From assembly GCA_018828585.1 (NCBI GenBank), contig JAHJVW010000068.1:1-55107 (forward strand): a stretch of 55,107 bases of DNA, given 5' to 3'. This document shows, piece after piece, positions 5,383 to 44,582 of this stretch. This DNA is from Bacteroidota bacterium (GTDB taxonomy: Bacteria; Bacteroidota; Bacteroidia; Sphingobacteriales; Sphingobacteriaceae). Below the pieces are notes generated by a model. That model was not told the origin of the DNA. It worked only from the letters and a program-made list of their open reading frames with translations, and ran no database searches. Made by a program: the position numbers and the translations under genes. Positions within the stretch are counted from its first letter, which is position 1. The number at the start of each line of letters is the position of its first letter.

Positions 5383-6339
5383 ATGAAAATTACCGATCAC
5401 ATAAAAAACGCCAACGGAAAAACACTTTTCTCGTTCGAGCTCTTACCTCCTGTTAAAGGGCAAAGTATTCAATGGATTTATGATGCCATTGACCCGTTGA
5501 TGGAGTTCAATCCGCCGTTTATTGATGTGACCTACCATCGTGAAGATTATATATACAAACAACAGGCAAATGGATTGTTGGAGAAAGTTTCCTATCGTAA
5601 AAGACCTGGAACTGTAGCCATTTGTGCGGCCATCATGAATAAGTACAAAGTAGATGCGGTGCCACATTTAATTTGTGGCGGATTCACCAAAGAAGAGACT
5701 GAAAACGCATTGATCGATATGCAGTTTTTAGGTATTGATAATGTATTGGTTTTACGTGGCGATGCCCGTCATGCTGATTCTTCCTTTATTCCAACTCCAG
5801 GGGGACATTGTTATGCTACGGAATTATTGCAGCATGTAAAAGACCATAATGAAGGTAAATATCTGCATGAAGACGTGAAGAGCGATGATACCAGTAATTT
5901 TTGTATCGGTGTGGCAGGTTACCCTGAGAAACATTTTGAAGCCCCAAATCTGAAAACCGATTTCAAATACTTGAAACAAAAAGTAGATATGGGAGCGGAA
6001 TTCATCGTCACCCAGATGTTTTTTGATAACCAAAAATACTTTGATTTTGTGAAGAAATGTCGTGAAAATGATATCAACGTTCCTATTATTCCTGGGTTAA
6101 AGCCAATTAGTGCTTTAGGACAATTAATAGCCTTACCTAAAATTTTCCATATCGATTTACCTGAGGATTTAAGCGAGGCTATACAAGATTGCAAAAATAT
6201 CAAAGATGTGAAAAAGGTTGGTACCGAATTTATGATACAGCAATGCAAAGAGCTCATTGATTTTGGTGTGCCCGTATTACATTTTTACACCATGGGTAAG
6301 CCTGAGCAAACTTACGACATTGCTAAAGCAATTTTTTAG
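5383..6339 (+). CDS. metF: 5,10-methylenetetrahydrofolate reductase MetF
   Basis: Reduces methylene-THF to methyl-THF using FAD, supplying the methyl donor for MetH immediately upstream. The 318-residue TIM-barrel protein has the usual size (about 290-320). The conserved early segment FSFELLPPVKG carries the catalytic-region Glu, followed by DVTYHRED. The substrate/FAD-binding stretch NVLVLRGDAR lies near residue 120, and GAEFIVTQMFFDNQKYFDF and VPIIPGLKPI follow. It lies 84 bases behind metH and is probably covered by the same SAM riboswitch. A dispersed palindromic repeat follows its stop. Confidence 0.95.
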   Translation: MKITDHIKNANGKTLFSFELLPPVKGQSIQWIYDAIDPLMEFNPPFIDVTYHREDYIYKQQANGLLEKVSYRKRPGTVAICAAIMNKYKVDAVPHLICGGFTKEETENALIDMQFLGIDNVLVLRGDARHADSSFIPTPGGHCYATELLQHVKDHNEGKYLHEDVKSDDTSNFCIGVAGYPEKHFEAPNLKTDFKYLKQKVDMGAEFIVTQMFFDNQKYFDFVKKCRENDINVPIIPGLKPISALGQLIALPKIFHIDLPEDLSEAIQDCKNIKDVKKVGTEFMIQQCKELIDFGVPVLHFYTMGKPEQTYDIAKAIF

Positions 6340-7088: not shown

Positions 7089-8390
7089 TTAACTCACCAA
7101 ATGCCCCTTAAATTCATCAAAACTATTCCTCATCTCTAGACAAATTTTCTCCTTCACATACAAATCCTTCACCTGCTCTGGCTCTTCAATCATAATTCCC
7201 ATTTCTTTAAAAACATCAGGGAATTTACATGGATGCGCTGTAGCTAAAACTACATAAGCAGTTTTTTCTTGCTGTTTTTGAGCAATTTTATCAGAAGTTA
7301 CTGCTAAAAATCCAGTTGCTGTATGAGGGCAAACCACATAAGACTTTTCTTTATAAACATAATCTATGGCAGACTTGATCTCTTCATCATTGTAAGAATA
7401 AGAGGTCAACATTTCCTTTAATTGCTCCAAATTATTATCAAACATATCCAAAATACGAACAAAATTACTTGGATCACCCACGTCCATGGCATTGGCTAAA
7501 GTTTGTACAGATGGACGGGCCTTGTAAATTCCGGTCTCTAAAAATTCCGGAACAATATCATTACTGTTGGTGGCTGCTATGAATCTTGAAACGGGCAAGC
7601 CCATTTTCCAAGCCATCATGCCAGCTGCAATATTCCCAAAGTTGCCACTTGGAGTCACGAAAATCAAATTATCAAATTGGTCTTTAAGCTTTGCGTAGGT
7701 GTTGGCATAATAAAACATCTGCGGAATCAGCCTACTGATGTTGATTGAATTTGCAGAAGTCAAATTCAGCTTCTCATTCAATTCCTCATCATGAAAAGCT
7801 TTCTTCACTAAAGCTTGGCAATCATCAAAAGTTCCATCAATGGCAATGGCTTGGATATTATTCCCGTTGGTTGTCAATTGTAATTCCTGTATGGGACTTA
7901 CCTTTCCTTTCGGATATAAAATAGTCACTTTAATTCCCGGAACATTCAAAAATCCAAGAGCAACGGCACCTCCTGTATCGCCAGAAGTCGCCACCAAAAT
8001 TTGAATCTCCTTTTGTTCCTTTTTCAAGAAATGCGCCATGATACGACTCATGAATCGCCCACCAAAATCTTTAAAAGCCAAAGACGGTCCGTGGAACAAT
8101 TCCAACACAAAAACATCTTTTTCCAATTGATGTAAAGGAGCATCAAAGTTTGCAGCATCATCAATGATTGCTTTCAAATCCTCCGCAGAAATATCATCTT
8201 TCAATAAAGCATAAGCCGTTTCAAAAGCAATCTCAGGTAAGGATTTCTTATCCCAATTCGCCATCACTTCCTCATCAATCTGAGGCAAAACAGTAGGCAT
8301 GTATAAACCTTTATCAGCCGGAAGGCTATTGAAAACTGCCGTTTCAAAATCAACTGACAAGTGGTGGTTTTTGGTGGAGTATAATTTCAT
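7089..8390 (-). CDS. thrC: Threonine synthase ThrC
   Basis: PLP enzyme converting O-phosphohomoserine to threonine, the last step of the pathway whose earlier genes lie upstream on the same strand. It has 433 residues, close to the E. coli-type enzyme. The cofactor lysine is expected at Lys107 in GPSLAFKDFGGRFM. A phosphate-binding glycine-rich loop is VATSGDTGGAVALGF, and FVTPSGNFGNIAAG is conserved. The gene is separated from thrB by a four-helix-bundle gene and repeats, but is probably still part of the thr transcript under the leader attenuator. Confidence 0.95.
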   Translation of the reverse strand: MKLYSTKNHHLSVDFETAVFNSLPADKGLYMPTVLPQIDEEVMANWDKKSLPEIAFETAYALLKDDISAEDLKAIIDDAANFDAPLHQLEKDVFVLELFHGPSLAFKDFGGRFMSRIMAHFLKKEQKEIQILVATSGDTGGAVALGFLNVPGIKVTILYPKGKVSPIQELQLTTNGNNIQAIAIDGTFDDCQALVKKAFHDEELNEKLNLTSANSINISRLIPQMFYYANTYAKLKDQFDNLIFVTPSGNFGNIAAGMMAWKMGLPVSRFIAATNSNDIVPEFLETGIYKARPSVQTLANAMDVGDPSNFVRILDMFDNNLEQLKEMLTSYSYNDEEIKSAIDYVYKEKSYVVCPHTATGFLAVTSDKIAQKQQEKTAYVVLATAHPCKFPDVFKEMGIMIEEPEQVKDLYVKEKICLEMRNSFDEFKGHLVS

Positions 8391-8398
8391 TGTTTACG

Positions 8399-8430
8399 TG
8401 GTTGGTTTTTGGTTGGTTGGTTGGTTAGGA
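8399..8430 (-). repeat. GGTT-word microrepeat between thrC and the four-helix-bundle gene
   Basis: The stretch is built almost entirely of GGTTGGTT words on the plus strand. It runs into the stop codon of the neighbouring four-helix-bundle gene. Related words appear on the other side of that gene (8800-8925), so the gene is bracketed by the same repeat family. Confidence 0.6.
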
Positions 8431-8799
8431 CTTACTTGATTTAGAATTTTGGTATCTGATAAATCCGTTGATTAGTTTTCCAACACTTTCAACTTTTTGA
8501 ATACAAATTTCTAATTGATTGTCATCAATAAAATTCAGATCCTTAGAAATGAATATTTGAGTTTCCAGTTCATAAAGTGAGCCTCTTCCGATATTTAGAA
8601 ATTGAATAGTTTCTTTTAGATGTTGTCTTCCACATCCTTCGGCAATATTCGAAGGAATAGAAACGACGGACCTCCTCATCTGAGAGATTAAACCAAATTG
8701 TTCTGCTTTTGGAAAACTAGCGGTAAGCTCATAAATAAAAGAAGCCAATTCTCTTGCTTGCTTCCAAACATCCAACTCTGTATATTTTTGATAACCCAT
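8425..8799 (-). CDS. Four-helix bundle protein (S23 / rRNA intervening-sequence family)
   Basis: A 124-residue, almost all-helical protein of the four-helix bundle family. Signature blocks are ELDVWKQARELASFIYELT (residues 8-26), FGLISQMRRSVVSIPSNIAEG (about 35-55) and RGSLYELETQIFISKDL. Members were first noticed as proteins encoded in 23S rRNA intervening sequences and are also scattered in Bacteroidota genomes. The molecular role is not established. It interrupts the thrB-thrC junction and is bracketed by GGTTAG-type repeats. This suggests insertion as a small mobile unit that left the pathway genes intact. Confidence 0.87.
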   Translation of the reverse strand: MGYQKYTELDVWKQARELASFIYELTASFPKAEQFGLISQMRRSVVSIPSNIAEGCGRQHLKETIQFLNIGRGSLYELETQIFISKDLNFIDDNQLEICIQKVESVGKLINGFIRYQNSKSSKS

Positions 8800-8925
8800 G
8801 TTATTAGTTGGTTAGGTGATTAGTTTGCTGGGTTATTAGTAGATAGTTAGTTGGATATTTAATTATTTCGTTTGTTTCCATTACACAAGTCTAACAAACT
8901 AACCAACCATACAACTAACAAACCA
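8800..8925 (-). repeat. TTAG/GGTT microrepeat spacer with inverted halves
   Basis: The plus-strand left part (about 8803-8856) is rich in GTTAGTTGG/GGTTAGG words. The right part (about 8891-8925) carries their complements, such as CTAACAAACTAACCAACC, so the spacer can fold on itself. The repeat extends into thrB and supplies its last codons and TAG stop (8915-8917). Confidence 0.55.
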
Positions 8926-9841
8926 CCGGTCCTTTTTCGTTAATTTCTGATAAATAAATATTGCTTTCTATGCCTAATGTTGCCAGCATCTTTTTCATCT
9001 CCTGTAAAGATTTTTGGGCCTCCTCTGGAGATCTGAATAAGGAGAAAACCGTTGGGCCAGAACCAGAAATCCCGAAACCTAAAGCACCATTTCCCATCGC
9101 CATTTCTTTCATTCTATCGAATTCCGGAATCAAAATAGAACGAATTGGTTCGATGATCACATCCTTCATACATCTTCCCAATAGTTCGTAATCCTGAGTG
9201 TAAAGTGAGCTGATTAAACCTGCAATATTTCCCCATTGAATTACGGCATCTTTCAATAACACTTTAGATCGGATAATTTGTCTAGCATCTCTGGTCGGAA
9301 CGTCCACATGCGGATACAACAAAGCGCAATATAATTTAGGAACTGGCAGTGCTATCACTTCTAGGGGCTCGTAACTTTTAATTAAAGTGAAGCCACCAAA
9401 CAAAGCTGGCGCAACATTATCCGCATGGCCATGGCCACAAGCTAAAGCTTCGCCTTCCATAGCAAAAGGCAATAACTCCATTTTAGAAAGCGGTTTTCCC
9501 AACAATTCATTGGCAGCAAACAAACCCGCTACCGCACTTGCGGAACTTGAACCTAAACCACTGCCCATTGGCATCTTCTTCTTCAGCTTGATATTTAAAC
9601 CAACATCTTCTCTTTCCAGTTTTTTCAGCAAACTGATGACACTTGCGCTTACCGTATTTTTTGAGGGATCTAAAGGTAATTTTCCTTCGTCTCCTTCAAT
9701 GGATATGATATTTACGCCGGGTTTGCTTGTCATTTCCATGATGAGCTCGTCACCCGGCTCGTTCACTGCAAAACCTAAAATATCAAACCCACAGACTACA
9801 TTGGCTACAGTTGCAGGTGCAAAAACTTTTATTGATTCCAT
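8915..9841 (-). CDS. thrB: Homoserine kinase ThrB
   Basis: GHMP-family kinase phosphorylating homoserine to O-phosphohomoserine. The 308 residues match the family size. The ATP-binding loop is PMGSGLGSSSASAVAG, starting at residue 91. The N-terminal FAPATVANVVCGFDILGFA and the C-terminal GISGSGPTVFSLF are the other two GHMP motifs. It lies 36 bases downstream of thrA. The very C-terminus and stop come from the adjacent GGTT-type repeat, so the end of the protein may differ from relatives. Confidence 0.95.
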   Translation of the reverse strand: MESIKVFAPATVANVVCGFDILGFAVNEPGDELIMEMTSKPGVNIISIEGDEGKLPLDPSKNTVSASVISLLKKLEREDVGLNIKLKKKMPMGSGLGSSSASAVAGLFAANELLGKPLSKMELLPFAMEGEALACGHGHADNVAPALFGGFTLIKSYEPLEVIALPVPKLYCALLYPHVDVPTRDARQIIRSKVLLKDAVIQWGNIAGLISSLYTQDYELLGRCMKDVIIEPIRSILIPEFDRMKEMAMGNGALGFGISGSGPTVFSLFRSPEEAQKSLQEMKKMLATLGIESNIYLSEINEKGPVVC

Positions 9842-9877: not shown

Positions 9878-12334
9878 TTAAGCTTTACTTGCTCCTACTT
9901 TAACTAAATCAGCAAATACACCCGCTGCAGTTACTGCTGCTCCTGCTCCCGGACCTTTAACCACCATTTGGGTTTCATTATACCTATCGGTGGTGAATGC
10001 AATGATATTATCACTTCCGGATAAAGCATAAAAAGGATGATCTGCACCTACGGCTTGCATACTTATTTCTACTTTTCCATTCTCCAATTTTCCGATGTAG
10101 CGGAGCACTTTTCCAGCTTTCTCTGCATCCTTTTTCACTTGCTCAAAATAGTCATTTGAGCTTTTCAGCTCCTGATAAAAATCTGCAACACTTGGAGCTT
10201 TAGCACAACTTTCTGGAATAATTTCTCCTAGTTTCACATCATTGGCTTCCATTTCGATCCCTGTATTTCTTGCTAAAATCAACATCTTACGCATAAAATC
10301 CACACCCCCTAAATCATCTCTTGGGTCAGGCTCGGTAAATCCTTTTTCCTGAGCCAGCTTCACCACATCATGAAAATTGGCGTCTCCTTTAAAATTATTA
10401 AAGATGAAGGAAATGGTTCCAGAAAGAATGGCTTCAATTTTTGAAATCTTATCACCACTCACGATTAGATCGTTCAACGTTTTAATGATAGGTAAACCTG
10501 CTCCCACATTGGTTTCATAATAGAAATCAACTCCATGCTTTTGAGCTGTATTTTTTAACTCAGCAAATTGAGCATATTCCCCAGAATTGGCAATTTTATT
10601 ACAAGTCACCACAGAGATATTTGCCTCAAATGCTTCTTTATAAAACTGAGATGGATAAGGGCTGGCAGTGTTATCAATAAATACACAATTAGGTAAATTC
10701 AGCTTTTTCATTTGCTGTATAAATTCCTCCAGATTTGCTTCCTCTTCAGAAGCATTCAATAGCTCTTTCCAATTTCCTAAATCTATTCCATCAACATCTA
10801 TCAACATCTTTTTAGTATTGGTTAAGCCTAATATTTTAATATTGATGAGGTTATTCTTCGCTAAAAATTCCTTGTGTCCTTTAATCTGAGATAATAACTC
10901 TGTACCAATATTTCCAACCCCAACAACAAATACATTTAATGTCTTCTGCAGTTCGGCGAAGAACGCATCATGAACGGCATTTAAAGCTTTGGATAAGTCT
11001 TCGTTGTAAATAATAACCGAAATATTATACTCAGAAGAACCTTGTGCAATGGCCACCACATTCACTCCATTTCTTCCCAAAGCATTGAAAAGCTTACCGG
11101 AAATTCCCGGAGTTTTCTTCATATTTTCACCTACAATGGCCAGGATAGAAAGGTTGGTTTCAATCTTCACAGGTTCCAATTTTCCGGCATGCAACTCCAA
11201 TTCAAACTCCTGCTCAATCAAAATCTTAGCTTTCAAAACTTCATCCGGATTTACGGCAAAAGTGATGGAATGTTCTGACGAGGATTGCGTGATTAATATC
11301 ACATTTACCTGCTCACGGGAAAGTAGAGAGAACAAACGTCCGCTAAAACCCGCTTTGCCCACCATTCCACTACCTTCAATATTGATGATGCTGATACGAT
11401 CAACCGAGGAAATCCCGCGGATGATGGTGTTGGAAGGTTTTAAATCATGTTTAATGAAAGTCCCGGCAAACTCGGGATCAAAAGTATTTTTAATGACAAT
11501 AGGAATTTTCTTTAAAAAAGCCGGAATCATTGTTGGTGGGTAAATCACTTTTGCCCCAAAAAAAGAAAGTTCCATAGCTTCAGTGTAAGAAAGCTCCTCC
11601 ATAGAGAAAGCTTTTTTCACCCGGCGTGGATCGGCAGTCATCATACCGTTTACATCAGTCCATATTTCAATCTGACTCACATTCAAAGCTGCACCAAAAA
11701 TTGCCGCGGTATAATCGCTTCCTCCTCTGCCCAAGGTGGTAATTTTACTTTCGGCATTACTAGCAATAAAGCCGGTAGCTACTACTAAATTTTCACTATT
11801 ATGAGCAAAAAAATCTTGTACCAATAGATTTGTCTGTCCAATATCCACTTTAGCATGCCCAAAGCTACTGTCAGTTTTAATCACTGAAGTAGTATCTAAA
11901 AATTCGGTTTGTAAATGTATAGTTCTCAAAATCCGGCTAATCATAAATGCTGAACTCTTCTCTCCGAAGCTCAAAACTACGTCTTTGGTTTTAGCACTTA
12001 ACTCCTGCAAAGCAGTGATTCCCTGCAAAATATCTTCCAGTTCTTGAAAATATAACTTCAGCTTTGTTAACACCTGATTTTGCTGTTGCAACGGAACCAA
12101 CTCCTTCACAACAACGAAGTGTCTTTTCTCTAAATCTGTTAAGCTAGGCATATAATCGCTACCTTCAACAGCATCTTCAGCCATTTTCAGCAACTGGTTG
12201 GTTACACCGGCCATTGCCGAAACTACTATAATAACAGGCTCTTTCTGATCTAATTCTCTTTTAATTACGCCCATCAGGGCTTTTAGTGCTTCTACGGAAC
12301 CTACGGATGTTCCACCGAATTTTAAGATTTTCAT
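9878..12334 (-). CDS. thrA: Bifunctional aspartokinase I / homoserine dehydrogenase I ThrA
   Basis: Fusion enzyme catalysing the first step (aspartate phosphorylation) and third step (aspartate semialdehyde to homoserine) of the aspartate pathway. The 818 residues match E. coli ThrA (820). The kinase begins at residue 4 with KFGGTSVGS and has the GRGGSDYTA loop. Two ACT repeats occupy about residues 310-455, the site of threonine feedback in this family. The dehydrogenase starts near 465 with VFVVGVGNIGTELL and has YYETNVGAGLPII. It is the first structural gene after the threonine leader attenuator; its ATG lies 20 bases beyond the terminator hairpin. Confidence 0.96.
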   Translation of the reverse strand: MKILKFGGTSVGSVEALKALMGVIKRELDQKEPVIIVVSAMAGVTNQLLKMAEDAVEGSDYMPSLTDLEKRHFVVVKELVPLQQQNQVLTKLKLYFQELEDILQGITALQELSAKTKDVVLSFGEKSSAFMISRILRTIHLQTEFLDTTSVIKTDSSFGHAKVDIGQTNLLVQDFFAHNSENLVVATGFIASNAESKITTLGRGGSDYTAAIFGAALNVSQIEIWTDVNGMMTADPRRVKKAFSMEELSYTEAMELSFFGAKVIYPPTMIPAFLKKIPIVIKNTFDPEFAGTFIKHDLKPSNTIIRGISSVDRISIINIEGSGMVGKAGFSGRLFSLLSREQVNVILITQSSSEHSITFAVNPDEVLKAKILIEQEFELELHAGKLEPVKIETNLSILAIVGENMKKTPGISGKLFNALGRNGVNVVAIAQGSSEYNISVIIYNEDLSKALNAVHDAFFAELQKTLNVFVVGVGNIGTELLSQIKGHKEFLAKNNLINIKILGLTNTKKMLIDVDGIDLGNWKELLNASEEEANLEEFIQQMKKLNLPNCVFIDNTASPYPSQFYKEAFEANISVVTCNKIANSGEYAQFAELKNTAQKHGVDFYYETNVGAGLPIIKTLNDLIVSGDKISKIEAILSGTISFIFNNFKGDANFHDVVKLAQEKGFTEPDPRDDLGGVDFMRKMLILARNTGIEMEANDVKLGEIIPESCAKAPSVADFYQELKSSNDYFEQVKKDAEKAGKVLRYIGKLENGKVEISMQAVGADHPFYALSGSDNIIAFTTDRYNETQMVVKGPGAGAAVTAAGVFADLVKVGASKA

Positions 12335-12350
12335 TTTTTTACTATATATA

Positions 12351-12383
12351 AAAAAAGCGCCTTCCGTTTATCGGAAGGCGCTT
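12351..12383 (-). terminator. Intrinsic terminator of the thr attenuator
   Basis: On the minus strand AAGCGCCTTCCG (12383-12372), loop ATAAA and CGGAAGGCGCTT (12366-12355) form a perfect 12-bp stem, followed immediately by a U run (12356-12351). It lies between the leader peptide and thrA, so it can only stop transcription before the operon. Its 5' arm contains CCTTCCG, which can instead pair with CGGAAGG at 12416-12410 in the leader. Confidence 0.9.
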
Positions 12384-12406
12384 GCATATGTGAATTTCAA
12401 ACATAA

Positions 12407-12466
12407 CTACCTTCCGCTACGCAAATGCGTAGTGCTTGTTGTAGTATATGTTGTTGTAAAAATCAT
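12407..12466 (-). CDS. thrL: thr operon leader peptide (threonine-rich)
   Basis: A 19-codon open frame upstream of thrA encodes MIFTTTYTTTSTTHLRSGR. It contains eight Thr codons, with runs of three, three and two, plus one Ile near the start. Such composition is the signature of a transcription-attenuation leader in which ribosomes stall when charged tRNA-Thr is scarce. The last Thr codons (ACT ACG) form part of the first hairpin arm. The stop codon directly follows CGGAAGG, the segment that would form the antiterminator. A strong promoter lies just upstream. The gene is far shorter than automatic gene calls usually retain. Confidence 0.88.
   Translation of the reverse strand: MIFTTTYTTTSTTHLRSGR
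12410..12432 (-). promoter_or_regulatory. thr attenuator switch segments (pause hairpin and antiterminator strand)
   Basis: On the minus strand CTACGCA (12432-12426) and TGCGTAG (12423-12417) form a 7-bp hairpin. CGGAAGG (12416-12410) follows directly. CGGAAGG is complementary to CCTTCCG in the terminator's 5' arm (12378-12372). A ribosome stalled on the Thr codons would cover the first arm and allow CGGAAGG to pair with CCTTCCG, preventing termination. A ribosome reaching the stop at 12409-12407 would cover CGGAAGG and allow termination. Confidence 0.8.
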
Positions 12467-12487
12467 GTCTTTGTGTAATTGATACAC

Positions 12488-12518
12488 CAAAACTAAGCTT
12501 TACATTTTTAAATGCAAA
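12488..12518 (-). promoter_or_regulatory. Promoter of the thr operon leader
   Basis: On the minus strand TTTG (12518-12515), exactly 19 bases, then TAGTTTTG (12495-12488), a full match to the Bacteroidota promoter consensus. Initiation would fall a few bases beyond 12488, giving a leader RNA that opens just upstream of the leader-peptide ATG at 12466. Confidence 0.8.
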
Positions 12519-43895: not shown

Positions 43896-44582
43896 TTAGT
43901 TACCTGATGCTGCTTTTGCTTCAGCCTTCATTTTAGCATTTGCAACAATAACAATTTCAACTCTTCTGTTCTGCGCTCTACCGTCTTCGGTATCATTAGA
44001 AGCAATTGGTTCTGATTCTCCTTTACCTACAGTTTTTAATCTGTTAAAATCAACACCTTGTGCTAATGCATAAGTTTTAACTGCATTTGCTCTTTCTAAT
44101 GAAAGCTTAGAATTATAAGCATCGGTACCCTTAGAATCTGTATGACCAATAATCATAATGTCAGTATTTGGATATTTATTTAAAGATGCTGCTAAATTAT
44201 CAATGTTTTGCTTTGCTGTCGCTGTTAAAGCCGATTGATCGAATCCAAAAAGAATACCTGAATCAAACTTCACAATAATACCTTCACCAGCAGGAATAAC
44301 TGTCGCACCAGGAACTGTTTTTTCAATTTCCGCAGCTTGCTTATCCATATTTCTACCAATATAAGCACCAGCTGTACCACCAATTGCACCACCAATAATA
44401 GCCCCAACAGCTGTATTACCAGCTTTTTTACCAATTAACGCACCAATCGTACCGCCTGCGGCAGCACCAATTGCAGCACCTTTTTGTGTTTTTGTTAACG
44501 ATTTACAGGCAGGCATAATAGCGGTAACTCCAAGAATCACAACTAATCCTAATGCTGTTATTTTTAATTTATTAGTTTTCAT
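43896..44582 (-). CDS. OmpA-family lipoprotein with glycine zipper
   Basis: A 228-residue outer-membrane lipoprotein. The signal peptide ends in a lipobox (IMPAC) with the lipidated residue at Cys26. A glycine-zipper domain spans about 34-80 (GAAIGAAAGGTIGALIGKKA). The peptidoglycan-binding OmpA_C domain spans about 105-215: FGFDQSALTATAKQ, MIIGHTDSKGTDAYN (diaminopimelate-binding Asp) and NRRVEIVI (Arg). It likely anchors the outer membrane to the cell wall. A single gene closed by a strong terminator. Confidence 0.94.
   Translation of the reverse strand: MKTNKLKITALGLVVILGVTAIMPACKSLTKTQKGAAIGAAAGGTIGALIGKKAGNTAVGAIIGGAIGGTAGAYIGRNMDKQAAEIEKTVPGATVIPAGEGIIVKFDSGILFGFDQSALTATAKQNIDNLAASLNKYPNTDIMIIGHTDSKGTDAYNSKLSLERANAVKTYALAQGVDFNRLKTVGKGESEPIASNDTEDGRAQNRRVEIVIVANAKMKAEAKAASGN

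Follow-up and report, generated by a model that had tools for sequence, protein, structure and literature searches.

What controls the threonine operon of this member of the Sphingobacteriaceae, and does the short threonine-rich reading frame that lies ahead of the operon take part in that control? The locus is found on contig JAHJVW010000068.1 of a Bacteroidota assembly (GCA_018828585.1), the whole 55,107 nucleotides of which are referred to here as the window. Read along the minus strand, the order is promoter, leader ORF (19 codons), terminator (12-bp stem), thrA, thrB and thrC (Table 1). A short ORF carrying codons for the product of the pathway thus lies between the promoter and the first gene, with a terminator ahead of thrA, a layout expected of the attenuator class. 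Taking sequence comparison and folding models together, we consider it very probable that the operon is under a ribosome-mediated transcription attenuator that would work like thrL of E. coli.

Table 1. Features of the threonine locus in the window, with the evidence for each
Feature	Position	Strand	Evidence
TTTG, -33-type promoter element	12515..12518	-	Sequence; pattern conserved in genus
TAGTTTTG, -7-type promoter box (TAnnTTTG)	12488..12495	-	Sequence; genus conservation; 19 bases from TTTG
Putative leader peptide ORF MIFTTTYTTTSTTHLRSGR, eight Thr of 19 residues	12407..12466	-	Sequence; genus loci
Outer 1:2 helix, 5' strand ACATATACTAC, within Thr codons	12441..12451	-	Minimum-energy fold
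Outer 1:2 helix, 3' strand GTAGTTATGT, around and after leader stop	12401..12410	-	Minimum-energy fold
Small pause-type hairpin CTACGC-AUUU-GCGTAG at last Thr codons	12417..12432	-	Sequence, fold; 6 pairs
Region 2, CGGAAGG, last leader codons, directly before TAG; pairs with region 3 (antiterminator)	12410..12416	-	Sequence; permutation test, pair counts
Region 3, CCTTCCG, terminator 5' arm; common to antiterminator and terminator	12372..12378	-	Sequence; permutation test, pair counts
Intrinsic terminator, 12-bp stem, 5-base loop	12355..12383	-	Fold; family-wide covariation
Terminator T run	12350..12356	-	Sequence
thrA, bifunctional aspartate kinase/homoserine dehydrogenase	9878..12334	-	NF006959, 1040 bits, cut-off 726
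thrB, homoserine kinase	8915..9841	-	NF002288, 381 bits, cut-off 194
thrC, threonine synthase	7089..8390	-	TIGR00260, 292 bits, cut-off 167

The individual parts had been listed in a first-pass annotation and proved to be present in the window: the consensus promoter with its 19-base spacing, the leader frame with eight Thr codons, CGGAAGG just before the stop and the terminator with its T run, which leaves 20 bases between the stem and the ATG of thrA at 12334. The pause hairpin proposed for the last Thr codons is also there, with six pairs instead of the seven written, since a seventh would require an impossible two-base loop. The leader region folds with a z-score of -6.8 relative to shuffles, a value owed mostly to the terminator. 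Among 3001 small-ORF starts in the window, six or more Thr codons within 14 are met at one other place only, at 44438 on the plus strand. All 13 distinct upstreams from the window's genus carry the promoter pattern TTTG-N17..21-TAnnTTTG, against 2 of 650 mononucleotide shuffles, and the TAnnTTTG consensus is quoted in the accessible text of PMC9723704. No such conservation of the promoter is seen beyond the genus: the pattern occurs in 6 of 85 rows, at least five of them named copies of genus members, and the -7 box by itself shows no enrichment (18 of 85 rows, versus 947 of 4250 shuffles). Between thrB and thrC, an ORF for a four-helix-bundle protein lies on the same strand (8425-8799, minus; TIGR02436, 127 bits). 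Elsewhere in the window, a SAM (S-box) riboswitch at 1409-1516 on the plus strand (66 bits) lies upstream of what appear from sequence to be methionine-pathway genes, with a MetF-like ORF at 5383-6339 among those downstream of it.

In the mechanism that we propose, a ribosome translating the leader in the presence of ample charged Thr-tRNA would reach the leader stop and cover region 2, leaving region 3 to pair with region 4, so that transcription would end ahead of thrA. When threonine is scarce, the ribosome would stall in the Thr tract and region 2 would pair with region 3 while region 4 has yet to be transcribed, allowing RNA polymerase to continue into thrA. An outer helix between the Thr codons and the stretch past the stop probably adds control in some relatives. 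Translation of the ORF, ribosome stalling and Thr-dependent read-through are all events that we infer. Folding of partial transcripts of the window leader gives a predicted probability of 0.98 for the 2:3 helix when a ribosome is stalled at codon 9 and region 4 is not yet made, and of 0.98 for the 3:4 helix when the ribosome is at the stop, where it would cover region 2. Among the 23 loci computed (L110 was left out), the stalled state reaches at least 0.85 for 2:3 in 21, the misfits being L060 (0.48) and L102 (0.02). For the full window leader, the terminator is predicted to win at equilibrium even when the ribosome is stalled (0.97), and antitermination must therefore be kinetic. Before region 4 is made and with no ribosome present, the predicted value for 2:3 is 0.97 in the window, 0.00 in L014 and L054 and 0.02 in L089. 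Since the window antiterminator is favoured without a ribosome, the model gives the outer helix no deciding role there, and a ribosome at the stop would be the main terminating signal.

The first-pass annotation had pointed to conservation in relatives as the check on its reading, and the Thr codons, the terminator and the 2:3 pairing are indeed kept across both genus and family. Matches to thrA were found in 16 of the 18 genomes of the window's genus, which includes Pedobacter cryophilus, and in 224 of 251 sampled family genomes; 80 named loci were also collected. A Thr-rich leader ORF is present at all 16 genus loci with thrA; its best 12-residue stretch holds 5-9 Thr, and these leaders use all four Thr codons (ACA 55, ACT 23, ACC 23, ACG 13). 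In most relatives outside the genus the tract is a mixture of Thr and Ile. When a leader is defined by at least seven Thr plus Ile in 14 codons, one is found in 93 of the 94 distinct upstreams from the family that span 300 nt or more (counted without L002 and L003, which belong to other aspartokinases, and L112, which is cut off), compared to 48 of 1880 dinucleotide shuffles and none of the 94 reverse strands.

Of the 79 thrA upstreams taken from elsewhere in the phylum, outside the family, 26 pass the same rule, against 19 of 1580 shuffles and none of the 79 reverse strands. By family code, the passes are f2 5 of 5 (one of these cases, L123, has a weak leader by eye), f3 1 of 1, f4 10 of 13, f8 4 of 4, f16 1 of 5 and f23 5 of 14, with none among the upstreams of f17 (9), f12 (4), f28 (4) and the smaller samples of 13 more families. 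These phylum upstreams, 80 before L154 was left out as having no start motif that could be found, were picked by hand among the matches listed, with f17 thinned the most.

The pairing that a switch of this type would need is also kept. At 106 of 109 loci, where some genomes are counted in two copies, the stretch from leader to thrA contains a terminator-tail pattern; the other three (L059, L084 and L110) have a recognizable hairpin with an interrupted T run. Across the family, 9 of 13 terminator pairs are changed on both sides (56 sequences). Region 2 and region 3 change together: GAGGAAG/CTTCCTC in many relatives, CGGAAGG/CCTTCCG in the window, and CGGGAC/GTCCCG (L092), CGGAAC/GTTCCG (L089) or TCGGGAGC/GCTCCCGA (L093, L104) in some Pedobacter. 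The fit of each region 2 to its own region 3 scores 16.98 and beats all 300 permutations (mean 15.61, maximum 16.24; 86 distinct rows), and at five offsets the pairs occur in types that differ on both sides, as counted over 81 of the 86 rows; this count leans towards pairing, relatedness remains in it, and five rows without a helix of five pairs were left out. The controls for the antiterminator are the permutation and the type-by-type table only, both of which leave relatedness in; the percentage paired is high by construction because the register was picked as the best match. The pair counts come from a script that takes a CC of the arm as its anchor, because alignment A2, which was rejected for these counts, has its Pedobacter rows one column out of register. 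Across the family, an antiterminator that excludes the terminator is kept by compensating changes, and the pairing of region 2 with the terminator arm that the first-pass annotation had pointed out is conserved.

The compensatory changes that the same annotation had asked for are thus seen in antiterminator and terminator at the level of the family and are scant within the genus, where covariation says little because the switching arms hardly vary. The two 1:2 helices of the genus are 86% paired, compared to 19-40% when slid, and only 1 of 500 shuffles attains their covariation score. In the ACTAC:GTAGT part of the outer helix, 3 of 5 pairs are changed on both sides, a number reached by 186 of 500 shuffles; in the pause-type hairpin no pair is changed on both sides within the genus, and the inner G-C pairs are invariant. 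The genus antiterminator is 89% paired, with measures that are reached by at least 29 of 500 shuffles, and the genus terminator has no both-sided change and a covariation below that of its shuffles. In L062, from a Mucilaginibacter MAG, region 3 reads CTACCTC where relatives have CTTCCTC, which weakens both helices and reflects either an assembly error or a decayed switch.

Two other explanations of the locus need to be weighed against attenuation. The terminator could simply end a constitutive leader or small RNA, with the Thr-rich ORF there by accident. The case for attenuation is made from sequence and folding, and the terminator arms of the genus, taken alone, lack covariation, both of which leave some room for this idea; we nevertheless judge it very unlikely, as a Thr/Ile-rich ORF stands directly before thrA in all but one of the 94 family upstreams and region 2 lies inside the last codons of that ORF, matched to region 3. 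Still less credible, in our estimation, is control of thrA by an RNA that binds a metabolite or a tRNA (a riboswitch or a T-box) in place of a translated leader. The leader is long, structured and equipped with a terminator, as such an RNA might be, but a search with Rfam models at their gathering scores returns only the SAM riboswitch elsewhere in the window, and what is conserved at the locus tracks amino-acid identity, with all four Thr codons in use.

The attenuator favoured here resembles E. coli thrL (Thr_leader, RF00506) in its operon, in its Thr-rich peptide (with Ile too in most relatives), in a region 2 that closes the leader ORF and copies the terminator 3' arm, and in a terminator ahead of thrA. 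It differs in the sequences of the arms and, in the window's genus, in a peptide dominated by Thr. The earlier description of the peptide as unrelated to thrL therefore holds for the genus and fails for many relatives, whose peptides mix the two residues (MTINNTTITTIITTGINLGGR is an example) and closely resemble that of E. coli; an origin independent of the proteobacterial thr leader is possible, as is common descent with it. Against RF00506 the window scores 28.6 bits, where E. coli scores 122 and the gathering score is 55, and it is therefore not a member of the family as modelled. Six Bacteroidota relatives gave 36.5-38.0 bits in three cases and no match at E <= 1 in the other three. Matches at thrA are full-length but weak, and many other Bacteroidota sites reach 35-55 bits. 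The model was rejected as a detector for the phylum and as evidence of homology: 144 of 296 genomes match at E <= 0.001 with one over the cut-off, and that one (L113) is taken as false because long ORFs of TTTGTTTTG-type repeats lie at the match site. The leaders described here suggest that attenuation of thr operons occurs commonly in several families of Bacteroidota, where the Rfam model misses it.

The Bacteroid-trp motif is, as its name indicates, linked to trp genes. PMC2864571 lists it (RF01692) in its Table 1 among the cis-regulatory motifs and assigns it to Bacteroidetes; it has no match in the window at its gathering score. The closest precedent is Flavobacterium psychrophilum, of the same phylum, where the available text of PMC9723704 describes strong clues for leader-peptide attenuation, the same proposed mechanism, before amino-acid operons. 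Threonine and thrA have no occurrence in its main text, and a thr entry in its Table S7 is possible. Long 5' UTRs of Bacteroides thetaiotaomicron hold small ORFs reminiscent of leader peptides, according to the sections available of PMC7366714. An earlier study relied on Rfam families and, in the portion at hand, the Bacteroidota row of its Table 2 is Bacteroidaceae. No thr attenuator of Bacteroidota is named in the titles, abstract openings or consulted passages of the literature searched, which included the accessible parts of PMC9723704, PMC7366714, PMC4833913, PMC3766115, PMC7041290, PMC2864571 and PMC6429828; a 2010 survey of attenuation (Lopatovskaya et al.) may cover the phylum, and neither Bacteroid* nor threonine occurs in PMC2965389. 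The mechanism is already known, and what is new is its spread in the phylum and the association of leader codons with the wiring of the pathway. In many relatives (the L019-L111 leaders, e.g. L045 1352-1484) region 2 is GGAGGAAG, a Shine-Dalgarno-like string inside the leader ORF; Bacteroidota are said, in the text available of PMC9723704, to be without Shine-Dalgarno use.

IlvA is the enzyme that leads from threonine to isoleucine, and in E. coli, according to the title of Lynn et al. 1987 (cited in PMC7041290), it is Thr and Ile codons that set the specificity. The window's control tract is Thr-only, and its genome lacks the IlvA regulatory domain PF00585. Within the genus the domain is found in one of 18 genomes, G009, the leader of which (MRRFITGTIITTTITLNA) has four Ile, the genus maximum, the others having 0-2; with G009 IlvA as query, no other genus member gives a match better than the 25-30% identity range. 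Of the 18 genomes, 17 have IlvC. A protein of the ilv-leu cluster in the window's genome has citramalate synthase NF042433 as its best match (680 bits, short of the cut-off of 950; next best 327), and this genome may therefore make isoleucine from pyruvate; the genus probably uses citramalate in place of the IlvA route. Citramalate synthase was tried and rejected as a mirror image of IlvA, since the TIGR00977 matches, below cut-off in 17 of the 18 genus genomes, include G009, which has IlvA, and so fail to separate the two states.

The association extends beyond the genus. Across 90 family genomes, the number of Ile in the best 14 codons is 2-7 (mean 4.8) in the 61 with PF00585 and 0-2 (mean 0.97) in the 29 without; 60 hand-picked family genomes had been added, 49 with PF00585 and 11 from among the thrA-bearing ones without it for which places were listed. 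In 44 further genomes, drawn from 45 of 79 usable named loci with the Thr-rich taken first and L096 left out (the other 34 were repeats of counted genomes, or surplus), the figures are 1-7 for the 37 with the domain and 0-3 for the seven without (p = 0.0002, ignoring relatedness and with genome completeness not established). With both sets together, three or more Ile codons are found in 89 of 98 genomes with PF00585 and in 2 of 36 without; thresholds of 2, 3 and 4, and Ile after residue 3, were tried, and this headline count uses 3. The 26 leaders of other families point in the same direction (17 with, 9 without; p = 0.0009, ignoring relatedness). Exceptions within the family are L057, L106 and L110, which have IlvA and one Ile, and L074 and L085, which have three Ile without IlvA; in other families they are G399 and G298, with the domain and one Ile, and G350, with three Ile and no domain.

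We think it reasonably likely, on this evidence, that a thr attenuator spread across several Bacteroidota families, outside the Rfam Thr_leader model, has had its specificity retuned, Ile codons being dropped where IlvA was lost and kept where IlvA stays, although this layer is less sure than Thr attenuation itself. The competing explanation, that the link reflects the shared ancestry of a few clades and no retuning of the sensor, is the less likely of the two and nonetheless a substantial contender. IlvA changes state few times (six on an 84-row ThrA tree and nine on a quick 128-row tree, both drawn without the IlvA-positive L237, L245, L247 and L263-L265, each with five or six Ile), and the eight exceptions listed above also count in its favour. 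Well-supported branches yield only four independent pairs, with which a pair test cannot reach significance, yet on average 2.3-3.7 of them go the expected way and 0-0.3 the opposite way over the thresholds tried. The direction also recurs within g1, where G009, the only genome with the domain, has the most Ile, within g21 and g15, and in other families. If retuning is the true account, the codon make-up of a leader would report the wiring of the pathway, and the parallel between Ile codons and IlvA would offer natural contrasts for how a codon-reading sensor shifts its specificity when metabolism is rewired.

A different arrangement is seen in four genomes of family f23 (G275, G287, G303 and G347). 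The three thrA upstreams fetched from among them contain no Thr leader. In all four, the IlvA domain is encoded immediately ahead of thrA, in the same orientation and some 50-90 bases away, as if the two formed one ilvA-thrA operon.
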